This document shows, piece by piece, positions 30,786-56,367 of a DNA stretch of 64,000 nucleotides. Origin of the DNA: Eubacterium sp. (GTDB lineage Bacteria; Bacillota; Clostridia; Lachnospirales; Lachnospiraceae); NCBI GenBank assembly GCA_017433825.1, contig JAFRGL010000012.1, positions 62,001 through 126,000 of the forward strand. Direction: 5' to 3'. The notes below the pieces were generated by a model. It worked only from the letters and a program-made list of their open reading frames with translations. It was not told the origin of the DNA and ran no database searches. How positions within the stretch are numbered: position 1 is the first letter of the stretch; every line of letters starts with the position of its first letter. The translations under genes were made by a program, and so were the position numbers.

Positions 30786-32510
30786 TTACTTAACGGTAAT
30801 GGCCGAATCCAGCAGGTTTTTCATGAATCCGGAAGCTTCCGGCGCGAAGACGCCGTTTCTGAGGTCATACAGGTTCTGGCTGCCGCCGGTCTGAAGATCC
30901 AGAAGCTTCTGCTCGTCCACGTCCTTCATGGTCTTGTAGTAATCCGGACATGCGCCTGGGTCATTGATCTCCGAGTAGAAGATGAAGGAGTAACCCGGAG
31001 CCCAGACCTCCACGCGCTTGCCGGTGGAGGTGTCCCCATGCCATACGCAGTGGTAGAGCGGGTCGCCGCTGGCGTATTCCGAAGAAGCGTCTTCCACATA
31101 GATGACGGCTACTTCCTCTCCGGGCGGATCGTTTGAGTTGATATACAGCACGTCGTATTTCGCCACGCAGGTGACCTTGTCCTTCCAGAAATCCGGGCAG
31201 ACGAAGGTGTAGTCCTTCATGTTGAAGGTGAGGAAGTCCTCGGTAATGGGTGCGCTGCCGCCGGAGCTTCCGGAACTGCCGCCGGCCCGTTCCGCCTCCA
31301 CGGCGAGAATGGTCTCGATGTTTTTCTTTTCGGTGTCATTTAAGACACCGGACATGCTGTCAAATACATCCGGTGCGTATTCCGGATTGTACCAGGTAAA
31401 TACGCCGAAACGGATTGCCCAGGAAATATTGCTGAATTTACGTCCGTGGCGGGCGTAGATTTCATTCCTGGCCTGGGCCAGCTCTTCATCCGTATAGTAT
31501 TTGAAATCATCCTTGGAATAAACCACCTTGTCGGAATCCGGAAGGACAAAGCCGTATTCGTCAAATACTTCGGACGCCTTCGCGTCTTCCTTCATGCCGC
31601 TTAACAGGAAGAAGACGGCTTCGTCGTAGGACATTTCACAGTTTTCCTTTGTGTTGATGAGTTCCTTGATCTCATCCGTCTGCCAGGTCGGCGTGTTGAA
31701 CTGGAGCACCTTGCCCATCCGTTTCATCAGGTCGTTTTTCGCGCTGTTGAATTCGCTCATGCTCGCGGGCGAATCGTCAACCTTGAAGTTGTAGACCATG
31801 TTTCCTTCTTCATCCGGACAGGAAATCTGTTCGAAGCTGCCGTAGGGCACCAGGATGTCGGAATCGCCCAGTCCGTAATACTCGTAGGAATCGGTCCATC
31901 TTTCGTCGCCCGAGCTGACGTAGAAGCAGATTCTGCCCATTTCATCGTCTTCAGGCAGCAGGAGCGCGTATTCCATGCCGCCTCCGACCTGGACATCCCA
32001 CATTCTGGAGAACAGGCAGACTGCCCGGCCCTGGGTGTAGGTGAATACATGGAGGGAGGAAACCTCGGCGGGCATTTCACTGTCGTCGCCGGGAATCTTC
32101 CTGATAAAGATCAGTTCCGGGGTATCGTCGCCAAGGATATTCTGTACGGCAACCGGCTTGTTGTACTGGTCTGCGGGATCTTCATAGCCGCACTGCCAGT
32201 CATAGCCTTTTATTTCCTCCTCGTGGGCTTCAAGGATGGAAAGGTAGGTGGCAAAGGCATCGGAATAGAGGGTATCGGTTTCTGCCGGATTGTCACTTTC
32301 AGCGGACGATGGTTCGGTTTCGGAAGCAGAGGTGAAAGATGTGGCGGGATCGGGGGCTTCCGGGTGAAGAACCGAAATCTCCTCCGCTCCGGCTTCGGTA
32401 CCGCCGCTTTCGGCTGCACCGCCGCCGCTGCCGCCGCCGCAGGCGCCGAGAACCATGGCTGCTGCAAGCAGAAGGCTTATCATGGCGCCGAAAAGGGTTT
32501 TCTTTTTCAT
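30786..32510 (-). CDS. YARHG-domain lipoprotein, downstream copy of a tandem pair
   Basis: A 574-residue secreted lipoprotein. The signal peptide ends in the lipobox LGAC (Cys at about residue 24), followed by a Gly/Ser linker and an SVLHPE-PDPATSF segment. A YARHG domain lies in the second half (TDEELAQARNEIYARHGRKF, then FTWYNPEY and LNDTEKKNIETI). The ~130 C-terminal residues (HCVWH, STGKRVEVW, KDVDEQKLLDL) form a further domain that I do not recognise. YARHG domains are extracellular in Firmicutes and of unknown function. It closely resembles the gene upstream. Confidence 0.82.
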   Translation of the reverse strand: MKKKTLFGAMISLLLAAAMVLGACGGGSGGGAAESGGTEAGAEEISVLHPEAPDPATSFTSASETEPSSAESDNPAETDTLYSDAFATYLSILEAHEEEIKGYDWQCGYEDPADQYNKPVAVQNILGDDTPELIFIRKIPGDDSEMPAEVSSLHVFTYTQGRAVCLFSRMWDVQVGGGMEYALLLPEDDEMGRICFYVSSGDERWTDSYEYYGLGDSDILVPYGSFEQISCPDEEGNMVYNFKVDDSPASMSEFNSAKNDLMKRMGKVLQFNTPTWQTDEIKELINTKENCEMSYDEAVFFLLSGMKEDAKASEVFDEYGFVLPDSDKVVYSKDDFKYYTDEELAQARNEIYARHGRKFSNISWAIRFGVFTWYNPEYAPDVFDSMSGVLNDTEKKNIETILAVEAERAGGSSGSSGGSAPITEDFLTFNMKDYTFVCPDFWKDKVTCVAKYDVLYINSNDPPGEEVAVIYVEDASSEYASGDPLYHCVWHGDTSTGKRVEVWAPGYSFIFYSEINDPGACPDYYKTMKDVDEQKLLDLQTGGSQNLYDLRNGVFAPEASGFMKNLLDSAITVK

Positions 32511-32578
32511 TTAAGAACTCCTTTCCTTAAGGACAGGAGGGCGGCCGCATGCCGTCCCCCGCCTTACAGTGTAGTGTG

Positions 32579-34390
32579 TTATTTTACAAATACGGATTCG
32601 TTAAGGAGATTGCGAAGGTAATTCTGACCGTCGCTGGAGAAGCTGCCGTTCCTTACATCATACAGGTTCATGTATTTTGTGGTCAGGTCGAGAAGCTTCT
32701 GCTGATCCACGTCCTTCATGGTTTTGTACTGATCCGGACAGGAGTCGGGCTCATTGATCTCACAGTAAAGGATGTAGGAATAACTGGTTGTCCAGACCTC
32801 AACCCTCTTACCTGTGGAGGTGTCCTCGTGCCAGACGCAGTGGTGCATCGGGTCCCCGCTGGCATAGGGGATGGAGGCGTCCACGACGTAAATGGTGATG
32901 ATTTCATAGCCGGCGGGATCGTTTGATTTGACGTAAAGGGTATCCCCGTCGGTGGTAACCGTCGTATTTGCCCACCAGTCACTGGGATGGAAATAGTTGT
33001 AGTGGGTCATATAATAGGAATTCATGATCATGCCGTTGTCGGGACGGGTATTCATGCCCTGACCGGAATTGTCGCCGGAGTTGTCGCCGGAACCCTCCGG
33101 AGGATTGCTCTGGGGAGGAGCCTGCGGGGGATTTTCCTGCGTATTGCCGGAATTATCCGCCGAGTTCCCGCCGTTTCTTTCATTCTGCAGTCCCAGGATG
33201 GTTTCGAGATTCTTCTTTTCGGTATCGTTCAGGATATCGTCCCGGCTGTCGAATTCAAGGGGGTCGTATTCCGGGCTGTACCAGGTAAATACCCCGAATC
33301 TGTACGGCCAGGGACTTTCGTCGAAGATCCGCCCGTGACGGGCAAGGATTTCCTTGGCGGCCTGGCTCAGTTCCTCATCGGTGAGAGACTCCAACTCTTC
33401 TTTGGTATATTCCTTTGTGTCGGAATCGGGAAGCAGGAAGCCATATTCATCGATGATTTCCGGTGTCTTTTCCCCGGACTTGATGCCGCCCTTTAAGAAA
33501 GCGATGGCTTCCTCGTAGGACATTTCAACCACATTTCCTTTTTCGAACAGGTCCTTCATTTCATCCGTCTGCCATTCAGGGTCATTGAAGAGGAGCACCT
33601 GTCCGGTTTTGGAAAGCACTTCATTCTTCCGTTTATTGTACTGGTCCATGGAAACGGAGCTGCCGTCCTCCTTGAACAGGTAAACCGACTGGCCGTCCTC
33701 ATCCGGTGCGTTTATCTGTTCAAAGTTTCCGTAATCCACCAGGCGGTCCGTGTCGCCCAGCCCGAGGAAATGCCATTTGAGTTTCCAGGTTTCGTCGCCG
33801 GAACTGGTGTACAGGCAGATACGGTCGATATCGTCTTCTTCAAGGTTCAGCAGTACGTAGTACAGTCCGCCGCCCACCTGGACGTCCAGCATGTCGGAAT
33901 AGAGGCAGACCGCCTTGCCGCCGGTAAACGTGAAGACATGCAGGGAAGCCGCGTCAACCCCGCTTTCCTCCGGAAGACCGGGCACCTTCCGCATGAAAAT
34001 CAGTTCAGGCGTGTCGTCCATTACGATGTCCTGCACGGCTATGGGTTTGTTGTAAAGGCCGGGATCCCCGTTGTAGCCGCACTGCCAGTTGTAGCCGAGA
34101 ATTTCGTCCTTGTGGTCTTCCAGTATTTTCAGATAGGCGGCAAAGGCCTCTGAATAAATACCGGAACCGGAGCCCGAGCCGGATGAATCGGCAGGCTTTT
34201 TCCCGGAATCCTCATCTTCGGCGGTAAAGGAAGTCGCCGGATCCGGATCTTCAGGGTGAAGAACCGAGAAATCATTCTCCTTGCTGTCACTTCCGCCGCT
34301 TCCGCCGCTTCCGCCGCCGCAGGCGGCAAGAACCATGGACAGTGCCAGCACAAGGCTTAAGCATACCGTCAACAGTGTCTTCTTTTTCAT
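32579..34390 (-). CDS. YARHG-domain lipoprotein, upstream copy of a tandem pair
   Basis: A 603-residue paralogue of the next gene with the same order: lipobox LAAC, linker, SVLHPE-PDPATSF segment, a central domain, YARHG variant EILARHGR, and the HCVWH...STGKRVEVW C-terminal domain. It differs by an inserted Pro/Asn/Gly-rich linker (about residues 428-470) between the YARHG and C-terminal domains. The C-terminal part is the most conserved between copies, suggesting it is the functional end. Both copies sit 68 bases apart and are probably cotranscribed from the promoter near 34.46 kb. Confidence 0.82.
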   Translation of the reverse strand: MKKKTLLTVCLSLVLALSMVLAACGGGSGGSGGSDSKENDFSVLHPEDPDPATSFTAEDEDSGKKPADSSGSGSGSGIYSEAFAAYLKILEDHKDEILGYNWQCGYNGDPGLYNKPIAVQDIVMDDTPELIFMRKVPGLPEESGVDAASLHVFTFTGGKAVCLYSDMLDVQVGGGLYYVLLNLEEDDIDRICLYTSSGDETWKLKWHFLGLGDTDRLVDYGNFEQINAPDEDGQSVYLFKEDGSSVSMDQYNKRKNEVLSKTGQVLLFNDPEWQTDEMKDLFEKGNVVEMSYEEAIAFLKGGIKSGEKTPEIIDEYGFLLPDSDTKEYTKEELESLTDEELSQAAKEILARHGRIFDESPWPYRFGVFTWYSPEYDPLEFDSRDDILNDTEKKNLETILGLQNERNGGNSADNSGNTQENPPQAPPQSNPPEGSGDNSGDNSGQGMNTRPDNGMIMNSYYMTHYNYFHPSDWWANTTVTTDGDTLYVKSNDPAGYEIITIYVVDASIPYASGDPMHHCVWHEDTSTGKRVEVWTTSYSYILYCEINEPDSCPDQYKTMKDVDQQKLLDLTTKYMNLYDVRNGSFSSDGQNYLRNLLNESVFVK

Positions 34391-36254: not shown

Positions 36255-37337
36255 ATGAAGATTACGAAGGTAACCATAGACAAATTCAATGTGCCCCTGG
36301 CGGAGCCCTTCGAGGTGGCCTTCGGCGTCATCGAAGGAGCGGATTCCTGGATTGTGAAAATCGAAACGGACGAAGGGCTTTACGGACTGGGAAGCGCCAG
36401 CCCCCTGGCCTTTGTGACCGGTGAAACAAGCGAAACCTGCCGCCTGGTGATGGACATGTTCGCGAAGGCGTTTATCGGCTTCGATCCTCTGGATATCGCC
36501 GGTGCCCACGCGCTGATGGAAAGCCTGATCTACAGCAACGGTTCCGCAAAATGCGCTTTTGACGTTGCCCTTTACGACATCATCGGCAAAGCGCAGAACC
36601 TTCCGGTGTACAAGGTGCTTGGCGGCACCGACCCGGTGGTGCACAACGACATTACCATCGGCATCAATACGCCTGAAGTGATGGCGGAGCATGCGCACAG
36701 ATATGTGCATGAAAAGGGCTTTGACATCCTGAAGGTCAAGGTGGGCAAAGACCTGGAGAAAGACCTTTACGCACTTGAGCTTATCCGCAAGGAGGCGGGG
36801 GAGAACGTCCGCATCCGTATCGATGCCAACCAGGGCTACGACGTGGAAACCGCCCTTGCCGCCCTGGCAGCCTATGAGAAAATCGGCATCGACGCCGCGG
36901 AGCAGTTCCTGCCCTGGTGGGATTTCGACGGCGCGGCGGAGCTGATGCGCAGGAATACAACTTCCGTCAAGCTCATGCTGGACGAATCCATCCACACGGT
37001 TTACGACGCCAGGCGGGCAGTCAGCATGAAATGCTGTGATTTCTACAACATCAAGCTGATGAAGTGCGGCGGCCTTTACACCGGCGCCCAGATAGCGGAT
37101 GTAGCGGAAGAAAACGGCATCGGCTGCATGGTAGGCTGCATGGAGGAGAACAAGATTTCCCTGACCGCGGGCATCTCCCTGGTGGCGGCAAAGAAGGCCG
37201 TGGTGGAAGCGGACTGCGACAGCTTCATGTTCTTCAAGAACGACGATGACGGTATCCGGGGCGGCTTTGACCGCAGGGGCGACATCTTCACGCTGCTGGA
37301 GAAACCGGGCCTGGGCATCCTGGAAGAAGACCTGTAA
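36255..37337 (+). CDS. Dipeptide epimerase, L-Ala-D/L-Glu type (enolase superfamily)
   Basis: Predicted to interconvert L-Ala-D-Glu, a murein fragment, with L-Ala-L-Glu. The 360-residue protein shows the complete active-site set: Lys160 and Lys162 (KVKVG), metal ligands Asp190 (DANQGY), Glu216 and Asp243 (LDES), Lys267 (NIKLMKCGG), and the Asp320-x-Asp322 motif that binds the substrate amino group. The positions agree closely with characterised Ala-Glu epimerases. I use the ATG at 36255 behind AAGGAAAGG rather than an earlier in-frame codon at 36189. It is the first gene of an operon with three hydrolases and a dipeptide importer. Confidence 0.88.
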   Translation: MKITKVTIDKFNVPLAEPFEVAFGVIEGADSWIVKIETDEGLYGLGSASPLAFVTGETSETCRLVMDMFAKAFIGFDPLDIAGAHALMESLIYSNGSAKCAFDVALYDIIGKAQNLPVYKVLGGTDPVVHNDITIGINTPEVMAEHAHRYVHEKGFDILKVKVGKDLEKDLYALELIRKEAGENVRIRIDANQGYDVETALAALAAYEKIGIDAAEQFLPWWDFDGAAELMRRNTTSVKLMLDESIHTVYDARRAVSMKCCDFYNIKLMKCGGLYTGAQIADVAEENGIGCMVGCMEENKISLTAGISLVAAKKAVVEADCDSFMFFKNDDDGIRGGFDRRGDIFTLLEKPGLGILEEDL

Positions 37338-37404
37338 AGCAAATAATATCCGAATGTGAATATACCGAACCATAAAACCTGCAGGAAATAAAAGGAGAAG
37401 TAAA

Positions 37405-38898
37405 ATGGCAGATATGGAAAAAATCCGCAAAATGATAAATGAGGAGCTTGCAAACTGGGATCTTCCCTCCATTGGTGTGGGAATCGTCAAAGACGGTGAA
37501 GTTGTACTGGCCGAAGGCTTCGGCATGGCGAATATAGAGAAAAACCTGGCGTCCAACCCGGATGCGCTGTACCAGATCGGTTCCTGCTCCAAGGCATTCA
37601 CCGCGGCTGCCTGCGCGAAGCTGGTGGATATGGGGAAGCTGGAGTGGGACAAACCCATCCACAATTATATGCCCTGGGTGGAATTCAAGGATACCTTCAC
37701 CACCATGAACGTGACCGTGCGCGACCTCCTCTGTCACAGAACGGGCCTTCCCCGGCATGACGCCTACTGGATCAACGGCCCCCAGAGCAGGTATGAGTGC
37801 GTTTATAATTTAAGAAACATGACCCCCGCATGGTCCTTCCGTTCCCACTGGTGCTACCAGAACACCTGCTTCGTGCTGGCCGGCATGCTGGTGGAAACCC
37901 TGTCCGGCAAAAGCTGGGAGGATTTTGTGCAGGAAGAAATCTTCAATCCTTTAGGCATGACCAGATCCTTCTTCTATGTGGATGATATCGCGAATGACGG
38001 CAATGCTTCCGTCGGCTACGGCAGGGTGATGCCCACCGACCTTACCGGCTGGAAAAGGGTTGATTTCCTGAAGAGCGACCGGGAAGACAAGGCTGCCGGC
38101 GTCGGCGCGCCTTACGGCCCCGCAGGCTCCATTGTTTCCACTGTCAACGATATGCTTAAATGGGTGCAGTTCAACCTGAACAACGGCAAGGTAGGAGAGG
38201 AGCAGGTTATTTCCGAGGAAAATATGAAGGAGCTGCACAAGCCCCAGATGCTGATGAGCGCTGCCCTGCTGGTTCCCTTCCCTGAGGAAGACATGTATTC
38301 CTACGGCATGGGCTGGTTCACCGAGATGTTCCGGGGACACTTAAGGGTGCAGCACGGCGGCAACATCAACGGGTATTCCGCCCTGGTCACCATGGTACCG
38401 GATCAGAACCTGGGCATCGTAACTTTGGTGAACTTCGACAACGGCTTCATGACCTACGGCGCTTCCTACCAGATCACCGACGAGTTTTTGGGCGTGGAAG
38501 ACGGCGACTGGAACAACCGCTGGCGTGAAATCGTAAAACAGGTGTTCGCGTCCGCGCCGGAGCAGATGAAGATGCTCAGGGGAGAGAAGATTGAAGGAAC
38601 TTCTCCCAGCCATGACCTGGATGCATTCACAGGAACCTTCCGCAATGCCACTTATGGCGATGTTGTCATCGGAAAAGACGAAAACGGCCTGACATTTACT
38701 TATAACAAGGCTTCATCTCCCATGGAACATTTCCATTATGATACCTTTACCATTACAGATGTCCATCATCTGCTGTCCGGCATGAACGTGCTCTTCAAAA
38801 CGGACAAAGCCGGTACGGTAAATGAACTGGATATCGGCATCACCCTCGAGCCTACGCTGCCGGATGAGGCATTTATCCGCATAAAGGAAGAAGCCTGA
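37405..38898 (+). CDS. Cytoplasmic serine hydrolase, beta-lactamase/D-aminopeptidase (S12) fold, copy 1
   Basis: A 497-residue S12-type hydrolase. The nucleophile motif is Ser60-Cys-Ser-Lys63, the second motif is Tyr-Gln-Asn in HWCYQNTCF, and the third is HGG in VQHGGNING. The C-terminal ~120 residues form a beta-barrel-like domain as in D-aminopeptidases. The protein begins MADMEKIRKMINEEL with no signal peptide, so unlike penicillin-binding proteins it should act in the cytoplasm. Its place between the epimerase and the Dpp importer suggests hydrolysis of imported peptides, perhaps at D-residues. Esterase activity is the alternative. Confidence 0.85.
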   Translation: MADMEKIRKMINEELANWDLPSIGVGIVKDGEVVLAEGFGMANIEKNLASNPDALYQIGSCSKAFTAAACAKLVDMGKLEWDKPIHNYMPWVEFKDTFTTMNVTVRDLLCHRTGLPRHDAYWINGPQSRYECVYNLRNMTPAWSFRSHWCYQNTCFVLAGMLVETLSGKSWEDFVQEEIFNPLGMTRSFFYVDDIANDGNASVGYGRVMPTDLTGWKRVDFLKSDREDKAAGVGAPYGPAGSIVSTVNDMLKWVQFNLNNGKVGEEQVISEENMKELHKPQMLMSAALLVPFPEEDMYSYGMGWFTEMFRGHLRVQHGGNINGYSALVTMVPDQNLGIVTLVNFDNGFMTYGASYQITDEFLGVEDGDWNNRWREIVKQVFASAPEQMKMLRGEKIEGTSPSHDLDAFTGTFRNATYGDVVIGKDENGLTFTYNKASSPMEHFHYDTFTITDVHHLLSGMNVLFKTDKAGTVNELDIGITLEPTLPDEAFIRIKEEA

Positions 38899-38943
38899 AG
38901 CACGGATCGTGTATGATACAGAAATGAAGAGAGGTTACGTCAG

Positions 38944-40458
38944 ATGAGCAAAGTAAATCTGGATAAAATAACCGCGAAAATAGAAGAGCAGCTGAAGCGC
39001 TGGGATGTACCAGGTTTAAGCCTTGCCGTGGTGCAGGACGGTGAGACCGTCTTTGCCGGCGGCGTGGGCTTAAGGGACAATGAAAGCCTTCCCTTTACCG
39101 GGGATACCCTGGTACAGATCGGTTCCTGCTCGAAAGCCTTTACGGCAACGCTGATTGCCCGTCTGGCCACAGACGGACTTCTGGATATGGACAAACCTGT
39201 TGCGGAATACATACCGGGCTTTAAGCTTTCGGATGACTATGCCACGTTGCATCTGACCATCCGGGATTTCTTAAGCCACAGAAGCGGCCTTCCCCGGCAT
39301 GAATATGCCTGGTACGGTTCCGGCTACAGCCGGAACGAACTGGTATACAACCTGCGGTTCCTGCAGATGAACCAGCCGGTGCGTTACAAATACCAGTATT
39401 CCAACTTCAACTACCTGATTGCCGGGGCCCTGGTGGAAGCGGTGACGGGGATGAAGTTTGAAGACGCCATGACGGAGAAGCTGATAAAGCCCCTGGGCCT
39501 TAAGCATACCTTCGTTTACCTGGACCAGGTGGAGTCGGAAGAAGACCATGCGCTGCCCTTCGATCACAGCGAGGAATATACCATGACCGGCATCCGGCGG
39601 GTGGATTACTACGAATCCCCCGCGGAATTTCGTTCGGAAAACGCAAAAGAAAGGGTAGGAGACCCCACAGGCCCTGCGGGATGCATTGTAAGCAATGCGA
39701 AGGATATGGCTGTCTGGATTAATTTCAATCTGGCCGGCGGGAAAACGGCGGACGGCGTGCAGCTGGTGCGTCCGGACCTGATGCAGCTTATCTATACGTC
39801 CCACATTACTACCGGCGATGACCCGGCCATGCTCCCCGAGAGGAGTATGAACAGCTACGCCCTGGGCTGGAGCATCATAAATTACCGGGGGCATAAGCTC
39901 GTGGAGCACGGCGGTTCCCTTCCGGGATTCATTGCATCCACATCTTTCATGCCGGATCTGAACCTGGGTGTTTTCGTCTGCGCCAACATGAACGTCTGCC
40001 TGATTACGGAAGCAATATTCTGTGAAATTATCGACGATGTCCTTGGCGCGCCGGACGGAAACTGGTACGACCGCATGTATGCTTATAATGACGCCATGTT
40101 CAGGCAGGTGGTGGATTATTTCAAATCCTTCGGCGGCGAACCGCTGCCGGATACAAAACCCGCCCATCCGCTGGCCGACTATGCGGGAGAGTACCGGGCA
40201 CCGGGCTACAACCGCTTTATTATCACGGAAAAGGAAGGACAGCTTACAGCGGATTTCAACACCTGGAAGCCGGCTTTGCGGCACCACCACTATGAATCCT
40301 TTGCAACCTGCGGGTCCATCGGCGAGCTGCCGGCAGGCCTGATTCTGACCTTCGGCACCGACGGTACCGGTAAAGTCAGTACGCTTACCGTGACGCTGGG
40401 CAGTGAAGCAAATCTCAACCCCATTGTATTCGTTAAAGTGAAGGAGGATGCGTCATGA
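38944..40458 (+). CDS. Cytoplasmic serine hydrolase, S12 fold, copy 2
   Basis: A 504-residue paralogue of the preceding gene, same layout. Motifs are Ser61-Cys-Ser-Lys64, Tyr-Ser-Asn (QYSNFNYLIAG) and HGG (VEHGGSLPGF). No signal peptide. The substrate-facing segments differ from copy 1 (for example RHEYAWYGSGYSRNE against RHDAYWINGPQSRYE), implying a different peptide preference rather than recent duplication. A GAGAGG site precedes the ATG. The stop overlaps the next start by 4 bases. Confidence 0.85.
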   Translation: MSKVNLDKITAKIEEQLKRWDVPGLSLAVVQDGETVFAGGVGLRDNESLPFTGDTLVQIGSCSKAFTATLIARLATDGLLDMDKPVAEYIPGFKLSDDYATLHLTIRDFLSHRSGLPRHEYAWYGSGYSRNELVYNLRFLQMNQPVRYKYQYSNFNYLIAGALVEAVTGMKFEDAMTEKLIKPLGLKHTFVYLDQVESEEDHALPFDHSEEYTMTGIRRVDYYESPAEFRSENAKERVGDPTGPAGCIVSNAKDMAVWINFNLAGGKTADGVQLVRPDLMQLIYTSHITTGDDPAMLPERSMNSYALGWSIINYRGHKLVEHGGSLPGFIASTSFMPDLNLGVFVCANMNVCLITEAIFCEIIDDVLGAPDGNWYDRMYAYNDAMFRQVVDYFKSFGGEPLPDTKPAHPLADYAGEYRAPGYNRFIITEKEGQLTADFNTWKPALRHHHYESFATCGSIGELPAGLILTFGTDGTGKVSTLTVTLGSEANLNPIVFVKVKEDAS

Positions 40459-41957
40459 AGACAGATGAACAGTTCTGGGCGGAGTTCCCCGACATTGCGG
40501 AAGCAGCATTGAAAACATGGGATGCGCCTTCCGTAGGCATCGGCGTCATTAAGGACGGGAAAGTCGTTTTCAGCGGCGGTTTCGGCCTTCGCGACGTTGA
40601 AAACCGGCTGAAATCCGACGGACAGACCCTGTACATGATCGGTTCCTGCACCAAATCCTTTACCGCGGCCCTGTGCGGTATCTTCGCAGACAAAGGGCTC
40701 GTGGATCTGGAAACCCCCATCCGGAAATATGTGCCGGAAGTGGAGCTGATGGATCCCCTGGCCAACAGGGAATGCACTTTAAAAGACCTGCTGAGCCACA
40801 GAACCGGGCTTCCCAGACATGAATATTCCTGGTACGGCACGGATTATACCAGGGAGCAGATGGCGGACCATATGCGGTACTTTGAACCGTCCCAGCCTTT
40901 CCGGCAGACCTTCCAGTACTGTAACTACGGCTATATCCTGGCGGGCTATATTCTGGAGAAGATTTCCGGCAAAACCTGGGAACAGCTGATTTCCGAATAT
41001 ATTTTCGAACCGCTGGATATGAAACGCTCCACATATTATCTGGAGACCATGAAGGAAGACGGAAACCACGCGGAGCCTTATGCCCATGAAAAGGCAGGCG
41101 GCGGCCAGACGGGCATGGAACGGATTCCGTTCTTTGTTTCTCCCGTGGAAGACCGGGAAAAGGGCATCGGTACACCCTTGGGCCCGGCCGGTTCCATTTA
41201 TTCCGACGCGGAGGATATGCTCAACTATGTGAACATGTTCCTGAACAGGGGTAAGGCAGGTGAGACGCAGGTGATTTCCGAAGCGATGGTCACGGAACTG
41301 ACCAAAGGCCAGATTATGCGGAACAATCCGCTGGACCTGCCGAATCCCGAAACGGAGATGATGACCTACGCCTGCGGCTGGTTTGCGGAATTCTTCCGGG
41401 GACACAAGCTTCTGCAGCACGGGGGCAACATCAACGGCTTCTCCGGCTTTACCAGCTTTATGCCGGACCTGAACCTTGGTATTGTGGCCTACACCAACAT
41501 GGACAGCTGTTTTGTGCATTTCGCCCTGGCCAGAACCATTTACGACCATTATCTTGGGGCGGAAGGCGGCAACTGGGTGAACCGGTATCATGATTTTGTG
41601 AAGGAAAGCCATGACCAGCTTCCGGTGCTGTTAAAGGCCTTTACCGGGGAGCAGGTGCCTTATACCGCGCCTTCGCATCCGATAGAGGAGTACACCGGCA
41701 CCTACAGGAGGGACGGCTATTCGGATATGGCCATCCGTCTTGAGGAAGGCCGCCTGGTGATGGATTTCATCGGTGCGGTGATTAAACTGGACCACTATCA
41801 TTATGACACCTTCGTCACTGCAGATATCGTCGGTGAACTGCCGGGCGGCATGCCGGTGCATTTTTCCGCAGCTTACGTGGGCGGTAAAATCGAAACCTTA
41901 CGGATGCCCCTGGTTACCGAAGCGGGCGGCGAACTGGTCTGCTTTAAGAAGGTCTGA
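40455..41957 (+). CDS. Cytoplasmic serine hydrolase, S12 fold, copy 3
   Basis: The third tandem S12 hydrolase, 500 residues, translationally coupled to copy 2 (ATGA). Motifs are Ser64-Cys-Thr-Lys67, Tyr-Cys-Asn (FQYCNYGYILAG) and HGG (LQHGGNINGF). It shares RHEYSWYG with copy 2 and the HGGNINGF third motif with copy 1. It too lacks a signal peptide. It ends 40 bases before the permease gene, so hydrolysis and import are likely expressed together. Confidence 0.85.
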   Translation: MKTDEQFWAEFPDIAEAALKTWDAPSVGIGVIKDGKVVFSGGFGLRDVENRLKSDGQTLYMIGSCTKSFTAALCGIFADKGLVDLETPIRKYVPEVELMDPLANRECTLKDLLSHRTGLPRHEYSWYGTDYTREQMADHMRYFEPSQPFRQTFQYCNYGYILAGYILEKISGKTWEQLISEYIFEPLDMKRSTYYLETMKEDGNHAEPYAHEKAGGGQTGMERIPFFVSPVEDREKGIGTPLGPAGSIYSDAEDMLNYVNMFLNRGKAGETQVISEAMVTELTKGQIMRNNPLDLPNPETEMMTYACGWFAEFFRGHKLLQHGGNINGFSGFTSFMPDLNLGIVAYTNMDSCFVHFALARTIYDHYLGAEGGNWVNRYHDFVKESHDQLPVLLKAFTGEQVPYTAPSHPIEEYTGTYRRDGYSDMAIRLEEGRLVMDFIGAVIKLDHYHYDTFVTADIVGELPGGMPVHFSAAYVGGKIETLRMPLVTEAGGELVCFKKV

Positions 41958-41997
41958 ACAGAGAAGGAAAAAATACAGTTAAGAAGGGATTGACTGC

Positions 41998-42924
41998 ATG
42001 GGTAAATATATCATTAAAAGAATATTGTATATGATACCGATGCTGTTCTGCGTTATCCTCGTTATTTACCTGATAATGAGCCTGACGCCGGGCGATCCGG
42101 CGTCGAACATACTGCCGCTTACCACGCCGCAGTCGGTAAAGGATGCCTACAATATTTCCGTGGGCTACACCGGGTCTTTGGGTGCCCGTTTCCTGGGTTA
42201 TCTGAAAGGCCTGTTCTCCATGAACATCCTTTCCTATACCACGCAGGAGAATATATTCGGCGAACTGGCCCAGCGGTTTCCCATTACTTTTGTGCTCGGC
42301 CTGATTTCTTTCCTGCTGGCAGCCGTTATCGGCATTTCCTTAGGGATTCTAAGCGCGGTGAAGCAGTATTCCTTCATCGATACCACCCTGACGGTGATCG
42401 CGGTGTTTTTCGGTTCGGTGCCGGCCTTCCTGCTGGCCTCTCTGGGCGTGCTTCTTTTCGCCGTGCGGCTGGGGGTGCTTCCCAGTTTCGGGCTGAATGA
42501 CGGCCTGAAATCCTTTGTGCTGCCGGTGGCGGCATTGACCATTTCCGCCATACCGGTGCTTTCCAGGATGACCAGATCCAGTATGCTTTCCGCTTTGAAC
42601 CAGGATTATATCCGGACCGCCAGGGCGAAGGGCTGCAGCGAAAAACTGGTTATCTGGAAGCATGCCTTAAAAAACGCCAGCCTGCCCATTATCACGCTTT
42701 TAGTGACCGGCTTTGCCGGCATCCTGGGCGGCTCCGTTATCATTGAACAGATATTTTCCATTCCCGGTATCGGCATGTATATGCTGCAGGCCATTAATTA
42801 TAAAAATGTGCCTGTGGTCATGACCTGCGCGCTGATTCTGGCCTTCATCTTCATGGTGGCCATGGTGCTGCTGGACATCTTTTTCGCCCTTATCGACCCG
42901 AAAATCCGAGCGAGGTACAAGTGA
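41998..42924 (+). CDS. dppB: Peptide ABC transporter permease (DppB-like)
   Basis: The first permease of a dipeptide/oligopeptide importer. At 308 residues it has one N-terminal membrane segment (KYIIKRILYMIPML), a periplasmic-side loop with TPGDPAS, and five further segments. The EAA-type loop DYIRTARAKGCSEKLVIWKHALKNA contacts the ATPases. The start follows AAGAAGGGA. Its stop overlaps the next gene (TGATG). Confidence 0.92.
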   Translation: MGKYIIKRILYMIPMLFCVILVIYLIMSLTPGDPASNILPLTTPQSVKDAYNISVGYTGSLGARFLGYLKGLFSMNILSYTTQENIFGELAQRFPITFVLGLISFLLAAVIGISLGILSAVKQYSFIDTTLTVIAVFFGSVPAFLLASLGVLLFAVRLGVLPSFGLNDGLKSFVLPVAALTISAIPVLSRMTRSSMLSALNQDYIRTARAKGCSEKLVIWKHALKNASLPIITLLVTGFAGILGGSVIIEQIFSIPGIGMYMLQAINYKNVPVVMTCALILAFIFMVAMVLLDIFFALIDPKIRARYK

Positions 42925-43808
42925 TGAGAGAGAAGAAGCTGAAATCCACCATACAGGCCAACCGCACCAAAAGCATGGCGTCTGATGTCGCAAAGCGCTT
43001 TTTCCGCAATAAGGCGGCTGTCATCGGGCTGATTATTATCTGTGTTGTATTATTCCTGATCATTTTCGCAAACGTGCTGATCCCGAAGGAAATGGTCACT
43101 TCCTACGATGTCCGGGCCAGAATGTCAGGTCCTTCCGCGGCCCACTGGTTCGGCACGGACAACATCGGGCGGGATACCTTCGCCCGGATTGTCTACGGTA
43201 CCCGGATCACCGTCGGCATCGGTGTCGGCGCAACCCTGATAAGCCTCCTGTTCGGTGCAATCCTGGCAGCAATCTGCGCCTTGTTCCGAAAGGCGGACAT
43301 GGTCATCATGCGTATCATCGACGTATGGAACTGTATCCCCGCCATCCTGCTCGCCCTGGTTTTCCTGGCTGTCTTCGGCGGGAGTGTCTCCAATATGGTC
43401 CTGACCCTGGCTTTGGTGAATATGCCCGGCTTTACCGCCCGGATACGAAGCGTGCTTCTGTCCATCGTGGAGCAGGATTATGTGAAAGCAGCCCGCATCA
43501 GCGGTACAGGCAACCTGAAGCTGGTATTCCGGCACATTCTGCCCAACGCGGTGAATACCATTATCGTGGACGCGACCATGACCATCTCGGCCATGATGCT
43601 TTCCGCGGCCGGCTTAAGCTTCATCGGCATGGGCGTTGCACCGCCTTCGCCGGAGTGGGGCGCCATGCTGAACTATGCCACGGCGTATTACCGTACTGCG
43701 CCGCTGCTCCTGATTTTTCCCGGTGCGGCAGTGGTGATTACCGCACTGGCCATCAACCTTTTCGGCGACGGGCTGCGTGATGCCCTGGACCCGAAGAGCA
43801 TGAAATAA
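42924..43808 (+). CDS. dppC: Peptide ABC transporter permease (DppC-like)
   Basis: The second permease, 294 residues, six membrane segments. The loop HWFGTDNIGRDTFARIVYGTR and the EAA motif DYVKAARISGTGNLKLVFRHILPN are diagnostic for DppC/OppC. I choose the ATG at 42924, overlapping the dppB stop; a GTG one codon earlier is equally possible and adds one residue. Confidence 0.92.
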   Translation: MREKKLKSTIQANRTKSMASDVAKRFFRNKAAVIGLIIICVVLFLIIFANVLIPKEMVTSYDVRARMSGPSAAHWFGTDNIGRDTFARIVYGTRITVGIGVGATLISLLFGAILAAICALFRKADMVIMRIIDVWNCIPAILLALVFLAVFGGSVSNMVLTLALVNMPGFTARIRSVLLSIVEQDYVKAARISGTGNLKLVFRHILPNAVNTIIVDATMTISAMMLSAAGLSFIGMGVAPPSPEWGAMLNYATAYYRTAPLLLIFPGAAVVITALAINLFGDGLRDALDPKSMK

Positions 43809-43826
43809 GGTAGCGGAGGTATCTAT

Positions 43827-44840
43827 ATGGACAGAAGTAAACCTCTGCTTTCGGTCAATGATTTAAGTGTTGATTTCCGGATTGACAGAAAAACCACACT
43901 GCATGCGGTACGGCATGTGAGTTTTGAAATCTATCCCGAGGAAACCCTGGGGATCCTGGGGGAATCCGGCTGCGGCAAATCCGTTACCTGCATGTCGATC
44001 CTGCAGCTGAACCCGGCGCGGACCACCACCTATCCCACCGGCTCCATCCTGTTTGAGGGAGAAGATCTGCTCACGCTGAACGGGAAGCAGATGCAGCATA
44101 TCCGGGGCAATAAAATCTCCATGATTTTTCAGGAGCCCATGACGGCGCTGAATCCTCTGTACACCATCGGCAACCAGCTGTTGGAGGCCATCCGCATCCA
44201 CAACCCGAACATGGAGAGGGCGGACGCGAAGGATATGGTGCTGGAGGCTTTGAATTCCGTACGGATTCCGAATCCGGACCTGATTTTTGACTCCTATCCC
44301 TTTACCTTAAGCGGCGGCATGCTGCAGCGGAGCATGATTGCCATGGCCATGCTGGCAAAGCCGAAGCTTCTTATCTGCGACGAGCCCACCACAGCGCTGG
44401 ACGTAACCATCCAGGCCCAGGTGTTGGAGCTGATGAATGATCTGAAGGAAAAAGAGAAGACATCGATTATCTTTGTCACCCACGACCTTGGTGTTATCAA
44501 TGAGATGTCGGACCGCGTCATGGTCATGTACGGCGGCAGAAAATGCGAGGAAGGGGATGCGGTCGAAGTGTTCCTGCACCCGGCGCGTCCGTATACAAAG
44601 GGGCTCATCGCTTCCCATCCTTCACCGGATTATACCGGAAGGCGCCTGCCGACCATACCGGGCAACGTGCCTTCCCTGCGGGATATGCCGAAAGGCTGCC
44701 CGTTCAACAACCGGTGCAGCAAGGCATCTGACCGCTGTCAGGATGAATTTCCGGCTTATGAAACCGTAGGAGGCAACCACTGTGCAGCCTGTTTTGCACC
44801 GGAAAGCGTAAAGGAGGCGGCAGAAGATGGAACCGTTTAA
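43827..44840 (+). CDS. dppD: Peptide ABC transporter ATP-binding protein (DppD-like)
   Basis: The first ATPase, 337 residues: Walker A GESGCGKS, Q-loop MIFQEPMTALNP, Walker B LLICDEPTTALD. The signature appears as LSGGMLQRSM, with Met where many have Gln. The C-terminal oligopeptide-transporter extension contains CPFNNRC and further Cys residues (CSKASDRC), the expected site for a 4Fe-4S cluster in this subfamily. It overlaps dppF by 14 bases. Confidence 0.93.
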   Translation: MDRSKPLLSVNDLSVDFRIDRKTTLHAVRHVSFEIYPEETLGILGESGCGKSVTCMSILQLNPARTTTYPTGSILFEGEDLLTLNGKQMQHIRGNKISMIFQEPMTALNPLYTIGNQLLEAIRIHNPNMERADAKDMVLEALNSVRIPNPDLIFDSYPFTLSGGMLQRSMIAMAMLAKPKLLICDEPTTALDVTIQAQVLELMNDLKEKEKTSIIFVTHDLGVINEMSDRVMVMYGGRKCEEGDAVEVFLHPARPYTKGLIASHPSPDYTGRRLPTIPGNVPSLRDMPKGCPFNNRCSKASDRCQDEFPAYETVGGNHCAACFAPESVKEAAEDGTV

Positions 44841-45822
44841 ATACGAATACCATGAACAGTTTTTCCTGGAAGCGGATGATTTGTGCATGCATTTCCCGGC
44901 AAAAACCGACAGCTTCGGCCGTCCGGTCAGCTGGATCCATGCAGCGGATCATGTCACCTTCAAGGTGCCGAAGGGAAAGACGCTGGGCATCGTCGGCGAG
45001 TCCGGCTGCGGCAAATCCACCGTGGGCAAGATGCTGATCAACCTGTACCAGCCCACATCCGGCAGAATCCTGTATGACGGGGTGGACATTACCCATTTAA
45101 AGGGCAGCAGGCGCAAACCGTATATTAAGAAGATGCAGCTGGTCTGGCAGGACCCCTATTCCTCTCTGGACCCCCGCATGCGGGCGGGAGCGATTATTGA
45201 GGAAGGCATGAAGAATTTCCTGCCGGAACTGTCCGCCGAAGCGCGCAGGACGCGCATGCTGGAAATCCTGCACATGTGCGGGCTTTACGAGGAACATGCC
45301 GATTTCTACCCGCATCAGTTTTCCGGCGGCCAGAGACAGCGGGTCTGCATTGCCAGGGCCCTGTCCACCGACCCGGAGCTTATCATCTGCGACGAGGCGG
45401 TTTCAGCCCTGGACGTATCCATCCAGGCCCAGATTATCAACCTGCTGATGGATCTGCAGGAGCAGATGCAGCTCACCTACCTGTTCATCAGCCACGATTT
45501 GAACATCGTACGGTTCATTTCCGATGAAATCATCGTCATGTACCTGGGAGAAATCGTGGAGCGGGGCACCATGGAAAAGGTATACCTGAACCGTGCGCAC
45601 CCCTATACAAAGGCCCTTTTTGCCGCCACGCCCTCTTTTACACCGGGAAAGAAACCGGAAAAAAGAACCCTGCTGCAGGGGGATGTCATCTCCCCGGTTG
45701 ACCCGCCGGCAGGCTGCCGGTTTGCCAGCAGATGCCCCTGCGCCACTGCGAAATGCAAAGAGGAACCGCAGTGGACCCAGGTGGAAGAGGATCACTACGT
45801 CAGATGTCATCTGTTTGGCTGA
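44827..45822 (+). CDS. dppF: Peptide ABC transporter ATP-binding protein (DppF-like)
   Basis: The second ATPase, 331 residues: Walker A GESGCGKST, Q-loop WQDPYSSLDPRM, signature FSGGQRQRVCIARAL, Walker B LIICDEAVSALD. The C-terminal cysteine-rich extension (CRFASRCPCATAKC) resembles that of DppD. The pair of different ATPases is standard for dipeptide importers. Confidence 0.93.
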   Translation: MEPFKYEYHEQFFLEADDLCMHFPAKTDSFGRPVSWIHAADHVTFKVPKGKTLGIVGESGCGKSTVGKMLINLYQPTSGRILYDGVDITHLKGSRRKPYIKKMQLVWQDPYSSLDPRMRAGAIIEEGMKNFLPELSAEARRTRMLEILHMCGLYEEHADFYPHQFSGGQRQRVCIARALSTDPELIICDEAVSALDVSIQAQIINLLMDLQEQMQLTYLFISHDLNIVRFISDEIIVMYLGEIVERGTMEKVYLNRAHPYTKALFAATPSFTPGKKPEKRTLLQGDVISPVDPPAGCRFASRCPCATAKCKEEPQWTQVEEDHYVRCHLFG

Positions 45823-45840
45823 TAGTTAAGTCAGATGATA

Positions 45841-45877
45841 ACGGCAGCTGTTATTGTTTCGCAGAAGCTGCTGCCGT
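45841..45877 (+). other. Intercistronic hairpin between dppF and dppA
   Basis: ACGGCAGC (45841-45848) pairs with GCTGCCGT (45870-45877). No T-run follows, so it is more likely an mRNA-stabilising or processing structure than a terminator. That would help dppA reach the higher level usual for binding proteins. Confidence 0.5.
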
Positions 45878-45948
45878 ATCATATATAAATTGCCGTAACG
45901 GGCGGAAAGCCCCGGCAGGAAAAAGATTATTATTTTTGGAGGTAGATT

Positions 45949-47535
45949 ATGAAAAAGAAAACAATCCTTGCGCTGCTTCTGGCAGGCGTGATGGCGGTTT
46001 CCATGCTTTCCGGCTGTTCCGGTTCCGGTTCAGGCGGCTCCGGCGGCGGAAGCACCGAAGCGTCTTCTGAAAGCGGCGGCAAAACCAGCGGCCTTACCAG
46101 GCCCACCACCAAGGGTAAAGAAGAAAATGCACTGTATCTTTCCATTGTACAGGCGCCGAACACGCTGGATCCCGCGCACTTTGCTCTTCAGGCAGAAGAC
46201 TGGATTCTGATGCAGATTTACGAGCCGCTGTTTTTCGAAGACAATGACGGCAATCCGGTCTATGTGCTGATTGACGACATGGTAGTTGCCGAAGATGACT
46301 CGAAGGTGGAATTCACCTTGAAAGAAGGCGTGAAATTCCATTCCGGAGACGTCCTGACGGCTTCTGACGTCGCCTATTCCCTGGCCAGATCTGAGAATTC
46401 GACTTTACTGGCGGCTGTGTGGCCATACATTGAATGTGAAGTGATCGATGATACGCACTTCAATTTCAACTTCCCCTATGCGGATCAGGGCGCCGGTTTT
46501 TCCGCAGTGGCACCCTATATGGCCGGTTTCTGCATCGTGAACGAATCTTATTGTGAAGGCGTTCTGGCTGACAAAAATGACGACCTGAAGTTCAACTGCG
46601 ACGGTACCGGCGCTTATAAGTTTGAGAGCATGAGCAGCACCGGCGATACCGTTCTGACCAGATTTGAGGACTATTACGGGGAAGCTTCCATTGATACACT
46701 TTATTTCTCGGTTATCACCGGCAACCAGGAGCTGGCTTTTGAGGCAGGCGATATCGACTATGCCATGTATACCGGTTCCACCTATAAAGTCATCAAGGAA
46801 TATGATAATGTTTATGCCTATGCGCAGCCTGTAAACGGGGTTATCTTCCTGGTTACCAATATGACGGAAAATGCCGTTACGCATGATCCCAACGTCCGCG
46901 AAGCCATTGTCCATCTGCTGAACAAAGAGGATATTACCATTGCCGCCACAGACGACTCCGGTACGCCGGCAGATAACCTGGCTTCCCAGATGGTACAGTA
47001 CTGGGAAGACTGCTGCACCCATTTTGAACTGGATGTGAACAAGGCCAATGAACTGATGAGCGCGGCCGGCTACAGTGAGTCGAAGAAAGCGGAACTGACG
47101 CTTATCGTTATGAGCGCTTACCCCGCCTGGGTATCCGCCTGCAGTATCGTCAAGGAAAACCTGGAACAGTCCTACTTCACCGTGAATATTGAAGAAGTGG
47201 CAGACACCAGCAGATATTTCACCCAGGACTTTGATCTGGCCTTTATTTCCATCGGCCTGACCACCAGCTTTACATCCTACAGCATGATCTTTGACAGCAC
47301 CACCGGCATGAACCTGTCCGGCGTTTCCGAAGAGGATGCAAAGCCCGTACTGGATGCCTTTGCAGCAATTAAGGACGAAGAGACCACCCATGAAGCCATG
47401 AAAGCTGTCGTGGACAGCATGATTTATATCCCGTTAAGCTACATGAACACCTTCCTGGCTTATGACGGAGACCTGAACACTGCCCCGTTCTATACCGCCA
47501 GCGGTATTGTTTTCTACCGGGAGTTCTCCTGGTAA
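45949..47535 (+). CDS. dppA: Peptide-binding lipoprotein (DppA-like, SBP family 5)
   Basis: A 528-residue extracytoplasmic solute-binding protein. It has a lipoprotein signal with lipobox LSGC, a Gly/Ser tether, then the family 5 pattern: NTLDPAH near the start, VPFxLKEGVKFHSGDVLTASDV-like signature as FTLKEGVKFHSGD, and YIPLSYMNT near the end. It delivers peptides to DppBC. The strong GGAGG site and the preceding hairpin suggest high expression. It is the last gene of the operon. Confidence 0.92.
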   Translation: MKKKTILALLLAGVMAVSMLSGCSGSGSGGSGGGSTEASSESGGKTSGLTRPTTKGKEENALYLSIVQAPNTLDPAHFALQAEDWILMQIYEPLFFEDNDGNPVYVLIDDMVVAEDDSKVEFTLKEGVKFHSGDVLTASDVAYSLARSENSTLLAAVWPYIECEVIDDTHFNFNFPYADQGAGFSAVAPYMAGFCIVNESYCEGVLADKNDDLKFNCDGTGAYKFESMSSTGDTVLTRFEDYYGEASIDTLYFSVITGNQELAFEAGDIDYAMYTGSTYKVIKEYDNVYAYAQPVNGVIFLVTNMTENAVTHDPNVREAIVHLLNKEDITIAATDDSGTPADNLASQMVQYWEDCCTHFELDVNKANELMSAAGYSESKKAELTLIVMSAYPAWVSACSIVKENLEQSYFTVNIEEVADTSRYFTQDFDLAFISIGLTTSFTSYSMIFDSTTGMNLSGVSEEDAKPVLDAFAAIKDEETTHEAMKAVVDSMIYIPLSYMNTFLAYDGDLNTAPFYTASGIVFYREFSW

Positions 47536-47550
47536 TAAGTTTTAAGGTTA

Positions 47551-47581
47551 AGGGCCGGCTTTTATGCCGGCTCTTTTTTTG
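47551..47581 (+). terminator. Terminator of the peptide operon
   Basis: GGGCCGGC / GCCGGCTC stem with a TTTTAT loop, followed by TTTTTTTG. Confidence 0.9.
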
Positions 47582-51083: not shown

Positions 51084-51132
51084 ATTTCCCCGGTAAGCTT
51101 TGCAGGGTATAACTCATTTTCAGGAGGAATTC

Positions 51133-52020
51133 ATGACAAACAGGGAAATTACCAAAAGACTTTCCGCCGTCGGAATCGGCGGCAACGTACTTCTCTCGGC
51201 ATTCAAGCTTATCGCCGGTATCTTCGGCAGATCCGGTGCCATGGTATCGGATGCCGTCCATTCCTTATCGGATGTTTTTGCCACCATAATTGCTTTCCTC
51301 GGCGTAAAACTGTCTGAAAAACAGGCGGATGAAAGCCATCCGTACGGCCATGAGCGGTTTGAGTGCGTGGCTTCCATGGTTCTGGGCGTTATCCTGGGCG
51401 TAACCGGCGTCGGCATCGGTTATACAGGCGTCAGAAATATCTTCAGCGGGGATTTTAAGAATCTGCAGGTGCCCACCATCCTGCCCCTTGTCGCAGCCAT
51501 TGTTTCCATTGTTGCAAAGGAAATCATGTACCGCTACACCATGCACTACGCGAAAATGATGAATTCCGCAGCCTTCGAGGCGGATGCCTGGCATCACCGG
51601 TCGGACGCTTTCTCCTCCATCGGTTCCCTTATCGGCATTGTCGGTGCAAGGCTGGGACTTCCGGTGATGGACCCCATTGCCAGCGTGGTTATTGCCGCCT
51701 TTATCCTGAAAGTGGCATATGAGATTATCAGGGACGCGCTGGATCAGATGATGGACAGTACGGCAGGCGCGGATTATGAAGAAAAGCTGAAAAACTTCAT
51801 CGAAGGCAGCGAAGGTGTGGAGGGCATTGACCTTCTGCACACCAGGAAGTTTTCCAGCAGGATTTACGTGGATGTGGAGATTGCGGTGGACAGGAACAGT
51901 TCGCTGATTGCCGCCCATGAAATAGCGGAAAGGGTACACGACGGCATTGAAGAGAACTTCCCGGAAGTCAAGCATGTGATGGTGCATGTCAATCCCGGGA
52001 AGGAGAAGCCGGCGGACTGA
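51133..52020 (+). CDS. Cation diffusion facilitator (CDF) metal exporter
   Basis: A 295-residue inner-membrane exporter with six membrane segments and a ~90-residue cytoplasmic C-terminal domain. The transport site is read as His43-x3-Asp47 (DAVHSLSD, segment 2) and His154-x3-Asp158 (WHHRSD, segment 5), the HxxxD pair of Zn/Co/Ni-type members. A cytoplasmic loop ESHPYGHERFE may add a metal site. The C-terminal domain has HxxRKFSSRIYVDVEI. The ATG at 51133 follows AGGAGG; an earlier in-frame codon at 51100 lacks a site. The leader riboswitch would switch it on by metal excess. Confidence 0.92.
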   Translation: MTNREITKRLSAVGIGGNVLLSAFKLIAGIFGRSGAMVSDAVHSLSDVFATIIAFLGVKLSEKQADESHPYGHERFECVASMVLGVILGVTGVGIGYTGVRNIFSGDFKNLQVPTILPLVAAIVSIVAKEIMYRYTMHYAKMMNSAAFEADAWHHRSDAFSSIGSLIGIVGARLGLPVMDPIASVVIAAFILKVAYEIIRDALDQMMDSTAGADYEEKLKNFIEGSEGVEGIDLLHTRKFSSRIYVDVEIAVDRNSSLIAAHEIAERVHDGIEENFPEVKHVMVHVNPGKEKPAD

Positions 52021-56321: not shown

Positions 56322-56367
56322 CAATCCGGAAACAGTTTTGTCTTGCTGTACAGGAGGAACGTTAAAG

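Follow-up and report, generated by a model that had tools for sequence, protein, structure and literature searches.

The window, a 64,000-nucleotide stretch of Eubacterium sp. DNA from the Lachnospiraceae (GenBank assembly GCA_017433825.1, contig JAFRGL010000012.1, positions 62,001 to 126,000 of the forward strand), carries at positions 36255 to 47535 a nine-gene operon in which a dipeptide epimerase, three cytoplasmic S12 hydrolases (S12a, S12b, and S12c), and a Dpp-type importer are encoded together. The reading that we favor, and to which we assign about even chances, is that the operon may be dedicated to the uptake and breakdown of short peptides containing D-residues, with the three S12 enzymes as the cutters and an epimerase that probably acts on something other than L-Ala-D-Glu. 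The binding lipoprotein and DppBCDF would import the peptides. In the cytoplasm, the three serine hydrolases, recognizable by family and motifs, would cut bonds beside D-residues with different specificities, and the epimerase, whose class is evident and whose specificity is predicted, would turn leftover L-Xaa-D-Yaa dipeptides into L,L-dipeptides; ordinary dipeptidases could therefore finish the breakdown. The features of the operon are as follows:

36255-37337, + strand: dipeptide epimerase, enolase superfamily (MLE subgroup), with KxK, D190/E216/D243, K267, and DxD present; Gly24, Ser47
37405-38898, + strand: S12a, cytoplasmic S12 hydrolase with DUF3471; motifs SCSK, YQN, HGG
38944-40458, + strand: S12b, cytoplasmic S12 hydrolase with DUF3471; motifs SCSK, YSN, HGG
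40455-41957, + strand: S12c, cytoplasmic S12 hydrolase with DUF3471; motifs SCTK, YCN, HGG; start within the S12b stop (4-base overlap)
41998-42924, + strand: DppB-like permease, Pfam BPD_transp_1
42921-43808, + strand: DppC-like permease, Pfam BPD_transp_1
43827-44840, + strand: DppD/OppD-like ATPase, Pfam ABC_tran and oligo_HPY
44827-45822, + strand: DppF/OppF-like ATPase, Pfam ABC_tran and oligo_HPY
45823-45900, + strand: RNA hairpin in the DppF-DppA intergenic gap, -24.4 kcal/mol, z -3.5, no T-run
45949-47535, + strand: DppA, substrate-binding lipoprotein (SBP_bac_5), lacking the aspartate of the D-(Y/N)-x-(D/E)-P motif
47550-47575, + strand: strong intrinsic terminator, z -4.2

The positions of the open reading frames and their Pfam identities (MR_MLE_N/C for the epimerase, Beta-lactamase with DUF3471 three times, BPD_transp_1 twice, ABC_tran with oligo_HPY twice, and SBP_bac_5) agree with the nine co-directional genes of the initial annotation, as does the single terminator that it placed at the end of the operon. 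Its overlaps and short gaps (-14 to 67 bases) are also there, with one exception: successive intergenic gaps from the epimerase to DppA measure 67, 45, -4, 40, -4, 18, -14, and 126 bases, so that S12b/S12c and DppB/DppC overlap by 4 bases and DppD/DppF by 14, and the largest gap lies before DppA. That 126-base gap contains a strong hairpin lacking a T-run, and so control of DppA may be separate from that of the rest of the operon. The promoter claimed for the front of the operon was not recovered: a sigma-70 consensus scan found no + strand site ahead of the epimerase, and promoter-like sites in the region were no commoner than chance (9 in all versus 10.3 expected from shuffling). Extension of the operon to the following alpha/beta hydrolase (47710) and flavin oxidoreductase (48704) genes was rejected, since the terminator stands between; the alpha/beta hydrolase gene adjoins the operon only in the sister genome L064 among 17 loci compared. 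The fourth S12 gene of the window (56338-57882, + strand) was likewise rejected as a member, having 21% identity to S12a and no DUF3471 match.

When the genomes of named species, largely metagenome assemblies, were scanned with an S12 alignment, the best 80 of 512 candidates resolved to 74 distinct loci, 19 of which (L064 to L080, L083, and L088) were of the operon type. An epimerase of 64 to 92% identity was found in 16 of the 19 (in L065, only its last 91 residues are on the contig), a DppB of at least 56% identity lay downstream in 13, and the S12a-b-c order was present in 10 (L064 to L068, L070, L071, L072, L075, and L080); S12c is cut by the contig end in L071, and L066 and L070 have an additional b-like S12 copy. 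Elsewhere, the hydrolase set was S12b-c (L073 and L074), S12a-b followed by DppB (L069), S12a followed by the contig end (L083), S12c with two epimerases (L079), or an a-c-a series whose only Dpp genes, DppD- and DppF-like, lie some kilobases upstream (L076). Three operon-type loci have no epimerase: L068 and two, L069 and L071, in which the contig ends inside or just before S12a. Among the other 55 loci, whose best S12 segments are 33 to 37% identical, an epimerase of at least 40% identity occurs in one, L131, and three more contain an enolase-superfamily relative at 23 to 28% identity. Chance co-location of epimerase and S12 genes was rejected on this comparison (16 of 19 operon-type loci versus 1 of 55). 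In the 17 loci compared, where few neighbors were identified, no additional gene family recurred in more than 3, and the block itself is thus the conserved unit. Linkage and order are conserved in loci recorded under several families. The initial annotation had proposed a gene-neighborhood search for co-occurring epimerase, S12, and Dpp genes and would have abandoned its pathway had relatives shown no conserved linkage; the search found that linkage.

The three S12 hydrolases form separate lines. In a maximum-likelihood tree of 54 S12 proteins, the a (15), b (15), and c (18) proteins each made up their own clade in 100% of 200 bootstrap trees; the group labels are best matches to the window proteins, the monophyly comes from the tree itself, and the placement of the long row L131 within the S12c clade is unsure. 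In a 43-row comparison that omitted four a- or b-like outliers, L131, and the outgroup rows, identity was 43 to 88% within lines and 30 to 47% between lines, and ten columns differed between lines while being at least 85% uniform inside each. One of these columns is the middle residue of Y-x-N, which is Q in the a line, S in the b line, and N in the c line. The defining features of peptidase family S12 (the SxxK, YxN, and H/KxG motifs and PF00144) are present: SxxK, YxN, and HxG are intact in all 54 rows, and PF00144 with DUF3471 was found in 47 of 47 members of the alignment. Comparison with a sister species revealed purifying selection on the eight operon genes tested, all but DppF, with dN/dS ratios of 0.06 to 0.22 (0.06 for the epimerase, 0.12 to 0.15 for S12a to S12c, and 0.09 to 0.22 for DppA, DppB, DppC, and DppD). 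Distinct clades, intact motifs, line-specific columns, and low dN/dS thus indicate that three intact, non-redundant S12 enzymes are maintained under selection. Of the trio of differently specific hydrolases first proposed, the distinct and maintained lines are borne out, and they appear compatible with different specificities.

Neither the S12 proteins nor the epimerase has a signal peptide or membrane segment (19-residue Kyte-Doolittle maxima, 1.15 to 1.77); their N-terminal maximum is at most 1.11 versus 2.13 in the DppA signal peptide, in keeping with the signal-less enzymes of the initial annotation. The nearest solved relative, both for S12a alone and for the 47-row S12 profile, is Pab87 (2qmi), followed in the profile search by Flp, IS11, ClbP, a carboxylesterase, alkaline D-peptidase, and D-amino acid amidase. 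Pab87 is reported to be D-stereospecific at both termini and to act as an amino- and carboxypeptidase, and it was proposed to process environmental peptides containing D-residues (PMC2651629).

The epimerase contains the KxK motif, the second-base lysine, three metal-binding acids, and a DxD on the last strand, as expected of a dipeptide epimerase; the two catalytic lysines are described for YkfB in PMC5808125. Its closest solved relatives, 3jva (236 bits), 3q45, 2p88, 1jpm, and 3rit, are dipeptide epimerases or unassigned members. The DxD presumably binds the amino end of the dipeptide in epimerases. The initial annotation had gone further and named an Ala-Glu epimerase; the dipeptide epimerase class stands on the catalytic residues and DxD, and the Ala-Glu identity is weakened. 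The NCBIfam Ala-Glu model is the best-scoring model for the protein, at 188.8 bits against a 500-bit cutoff, and the Arg24 of the Bacillus subtilis Ala-Glu enzyme is missing: not counting the L065 fragment, 16 of the 17 operon-type epimerases carry Gly at position 24 and one carries Ala. Arginine occupies this position in the B. subtilis enzyme, the fourth-ranked solved relative, in which we take it to bind the Glu side chain, and in nine distinct epimerases of the same family (L049 to L054, L029, L030, and L032), one of which, in L051, adjoins an NlpC/P60 gene and a transglutaminase-like gene. The operon epimerase shares Gly24 with 3jva, 3q45, and 2p88. Position 47 is Ser or Ala in all 17 operon-type epimerases versus Glu in all 33 other rows (27 distinct genes). 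Since 3rit combines Arg24 with Ala47, neither residue alone sets specificity. Because Gly24 is accompanied by a score that misses the Ala-Glu model by a wide margin, the substrate is probably other than L-Ala-D-Glu; dipeptide epimerases with diverse specificities exist (PMC13338154).

The transport genes are those of a Dpp/Opp importer, comprising two permeases, two oligo_HPY ATPases, and an SBP_bac_5 lipoprotein with a lipoprotein signal. The best NCBIfam models are nickel-type for DppB and the binding protein and oligo- or dipeptide-type for DppC, DppD, and DppF, in all cases below the cutoffs. Lmo0135 of Listeria is the nearest solved relative of the binding protein; PMC10269559 identifies it as CtaP, a cysteine transport system linked to peptide import.

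Several observations weigh against a D-peptide module. The S12 family includes esterases and beta-lactamases, and both types appear among the matches, class C beta-lactamases included; since the matches span peptidases, esterases, amidases, and beta-lactamases, activity is not readable from sequence. The Pab87 match covers the catalytic domain only, and because the 47-row profile gave no alignment of the C-terminal domain to 2qmi, an octameric Pab87-like chamber is not to be assumed. The L068 locus has the S12abc-Dpp arrangement with no epimerase, its genome carrying a 59% identical epimerase on another contig, and three loci recorded as Atopobiaceae (L077, L078, and L088) have the epimerase and S12c alone, with no close Dpp genes in the flanks examined and an ABC ATPase of another type after S12c (Pfam was run on L078 only). 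All 12 operon binding proteins compared lack the aspartate aligned to D436 of Escherichia coli DppA (408 in the mature protein), a residue that we take to anchor the amino end of the peptide, and a two-residue gap relative to DppA adjoins the missing position. The dipeptide importer proposed earlier therefore stands as a set of Dpp-type importer genes, with strict dipeptide specificity weakened and without the hallmark of a canonical dipeptide-binding protein.

The block is also rare and patchy in the genomes sampled. In the genus, a close epimerase was found in 2 of 7 genomes, the window's own included; the second (L064) has the entire operon at 78 to 92% identity, and of the five without a close epimerase, four are 77 to 82% complete and one is 97% complete. 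In the family, S12 matches at an E value of 1e-70 or better were found in 6 of 397 genomes, and of these genomes, with no more than three candidates scored in each, the window's own was alone in having three copies. In the class, none of the other epimerases found in 391 genomes at a threshold of 1e-120 was close (678 bits for the window's own protein and 411 to 478 for four others). In the order of the L067 genome (G781), 344 genomes gave five epimerase matches at 1e-140, of which three were already known, one is a 73% identical epimerase at a contig end in G949, and the fifth, at 547 bits, has a position apparently identical to that of the G028 epimerase. Since many of the sampled genomes are incomplete assemblies, absence is weak evidence.

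The missing aspartate raises the question of whether the ligand has a free alpha-amino group at all. The importer could instead take up cyclic dipeptides or N-acylated or otherwise capped peptides, which the S12 enzymes would open or uncap to a free dipeptide for the epimerase to convert, and this we consider unlikely. The aspartate is kept in E. coli DppA, OppA, and MppA and in all five binding proteins compared that lie beside other epimerases, the operon epimerase retains the DxD, and one of the top S12 matches is ClbP, an enzyme that presumably cuts an acyl-D-Asn amide. However, the residue is also absent from NikA, GsiB, and at least three of six further binding proteins encoded in the window's own genome (in another of its binding proteins, L148, an Asp lies one column off in the alignment), and thus the loss is a lead rather than diagnostic. 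A more elaborate version is conceivable and rather doubtful, in which the operon would be a salvage route for D-residue peptides without a free amino end and the S12 paralogues, perhaps in one hetero-oligomer, would act in turn to supply an epimerase of novel specificity with a free dipeptide.

Murein recycling, in which imported cell wall peptides would be cut and L-Ala-D-Glu epimerized, is improbable in our judgment. The best NCBIfam model of the epimerase, the presence of the B. subtilis Ala-Glu enzyme among its solved relatives, and the Bacillus arrangement for murein peptides, in which an epimerase, peptidases, and a transporter ATPase stand together (PMC3305447), speak for it. Set against these are the Gly or Ala at position 24, in place of Arg, and the score far under the Ala-Glu cutoff, and because Ala-Glu specificity is weakened, so is the murein link drawn in the initial annotation. 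Nor is there a recurrent NlpC/P60 or LD-carboxypeptidase partner, since no other gene family exceeds 3 of the 17 loci. Similarly improbable is a transporter for a metal chelate or other non-peptide, with the hydrolases as esterases or amidases of a different pathway; the nickel-type models of DppB and the binding protein favor it, as does a NiCo riboswitch 3.4 kb downstream of the operon, but the riboswitch precedes a cation-efflux gene outside the conserved block, and the epimerase is of the dipeptide type. Least probable is detoxification, in which D-residue peptide antibiotics would be imported and destroyed. D-stereospecific peptidases of the kind that hydrolyzes gramicidin A can belong to family S12, but the enzymes here look cytoplasmic by hydropathy, the importer would carry the poison inward, and a dipeptide epimerase points to complete breakdown. 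Hydrolysis of gramicidin A by such a peptidase is reported in PMC9541196.

Epimerases with other partners were found among 23 further matches in the family, for 19 of which the neighborhoods were examined. Distant S12 genes (26 to 34% identity) lie beside epimerases in 3 of the 19 (L044, L045, and L046), accompanied by Dpp genes in L045 and L046, and L131 has a more distant S12 gene near another epimerase and Dpp genes. The expectation is ~0.08 S12 genes per 20 kb, from the 10 S12 genes in the 2.6 Mb of the window's own genome. Epimerase and S12 genes appear to have become associated on more than one occasion. The stretches L046:8488-16628 and L045:6770-11648 represent a second S12-epimerase-Dpp pairing, the S12 protein of L045 having no DUF3471 match. 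In the stretches examined around the closest other epimerases of the family (50 to 57% identity), neither S12 nor Dpp permease genes were present, in seven of seven cases (L037 to L043). In one of them (L041:6445-10855), the epimerase gene lies beside genes for an S15 X-Pro dipeptidyl-peptidase and a DUF819 protein, and L038, L039, and L043 have the same arrangement, judged by gene lengths (Pfam was run on L041 only), with epimerases that are 52 to 55% identical. Across these loci, the epimerase is constant and its peptidase partner varies. Paired epimerase genes, adjacent or nearly so, occur at L079:7441-9965 and L076:5364-8455, and related proteins with no Pfam match at 1e-5 follow the operon at L066:18853-20091 and L070:17148-18091.

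Elsewhere in the window, the NiCo riboswitch (RF02683, 50967-51058, + strand, 74.2 bits) lies just upstream of the cation-efflux gene (51100-52020), and the pair is ordinary nickel/cobalt efflux control. Two adjacent YARHG-domain genes (30786-34390, - strand; 574 and 603 amino acids) group with one L064 protein, and the second product has a lipoprotein-like start. A 1,006-amino-acid protein with seven GBS Bsp-like repeat matches (PF08481) is encoded at 186-3206 (+ strand).

The use of non-murein D-residue peptides by gut and rumen bacteria has, to our knowledge, hardly been described, and word searches of the open-license literature, with most subscription papers outside their scope, found no paper on this gene combination. 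Through this conserved block of nine genes, in which three S12 enzymes are maintained separately, D-peptide feeding becomes directly testable with nine proteins, and the answer would assign functions to three S12/DUF3471 lines and one unassigned dipeptide epimerase class. Recurrence of the block in other gut bacteria suggests that it may serve a dedicated way of feeding on unusual peptides.

Each part of the operon resembles a known system. With Pab87 and the CubicO S12 peptidases, the hydrolases share the S12 catalytic domain, the SxxK-YxN-HxG motifs, and an additional C-terminal domain, which is DUF3471 here and a lipocalin domain in Pab87; unlike Pab87, they are three paralogues beside an importer and an epimerase. 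The epimerase shares fold family, catalytic lysines, and metal ligands with its five solved relatives, and its DxD with four of them, 2p88 having E-L-T instead; unlike these, the operon-type epimerases pair Gly24 with Ser47 or Ala47, the latter also found in 3rit. For the operon as a whole, the nearest parallel is in Bacillus, where the dpp genes, with DppA as an M55 D-aminopeptidase, are located beside ykf. PMC3305447 describes ykfABCD as encoding the L-Ala-D/L-Glu epimerase YkfB, the putative LD-carboxypeptidase YkfA, the endopeptidase YkfC, and the transporter ATPase YkfD, which act on murein peptides. In both cases, a dipeptide epimerase, peptidases, and transport genes are joined in a single operon, and the gene classes and linkage of the dpp-ykf type are present here as importer, dipeptide epimerase, and S12 peptidase-family genes in one unit. 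However, the Bacillus scheme uses M55, NlpC/P60, and LdcA peptidases, whereas the operon has three S12 paralogues, its epimerase lacks Arg24, and the aspartate of E. coli DppA is absent from its binding protein. No M55 D-aminopeptidase match was found in the window's own genome (92.7% complete), with the B. subtilis control matched. By analogy, the operon could be a variant or counterpart of the Bacillus dpp-ykf scheme in which S12 enzymes replace the M55 and NlpC/P60 peptidases.

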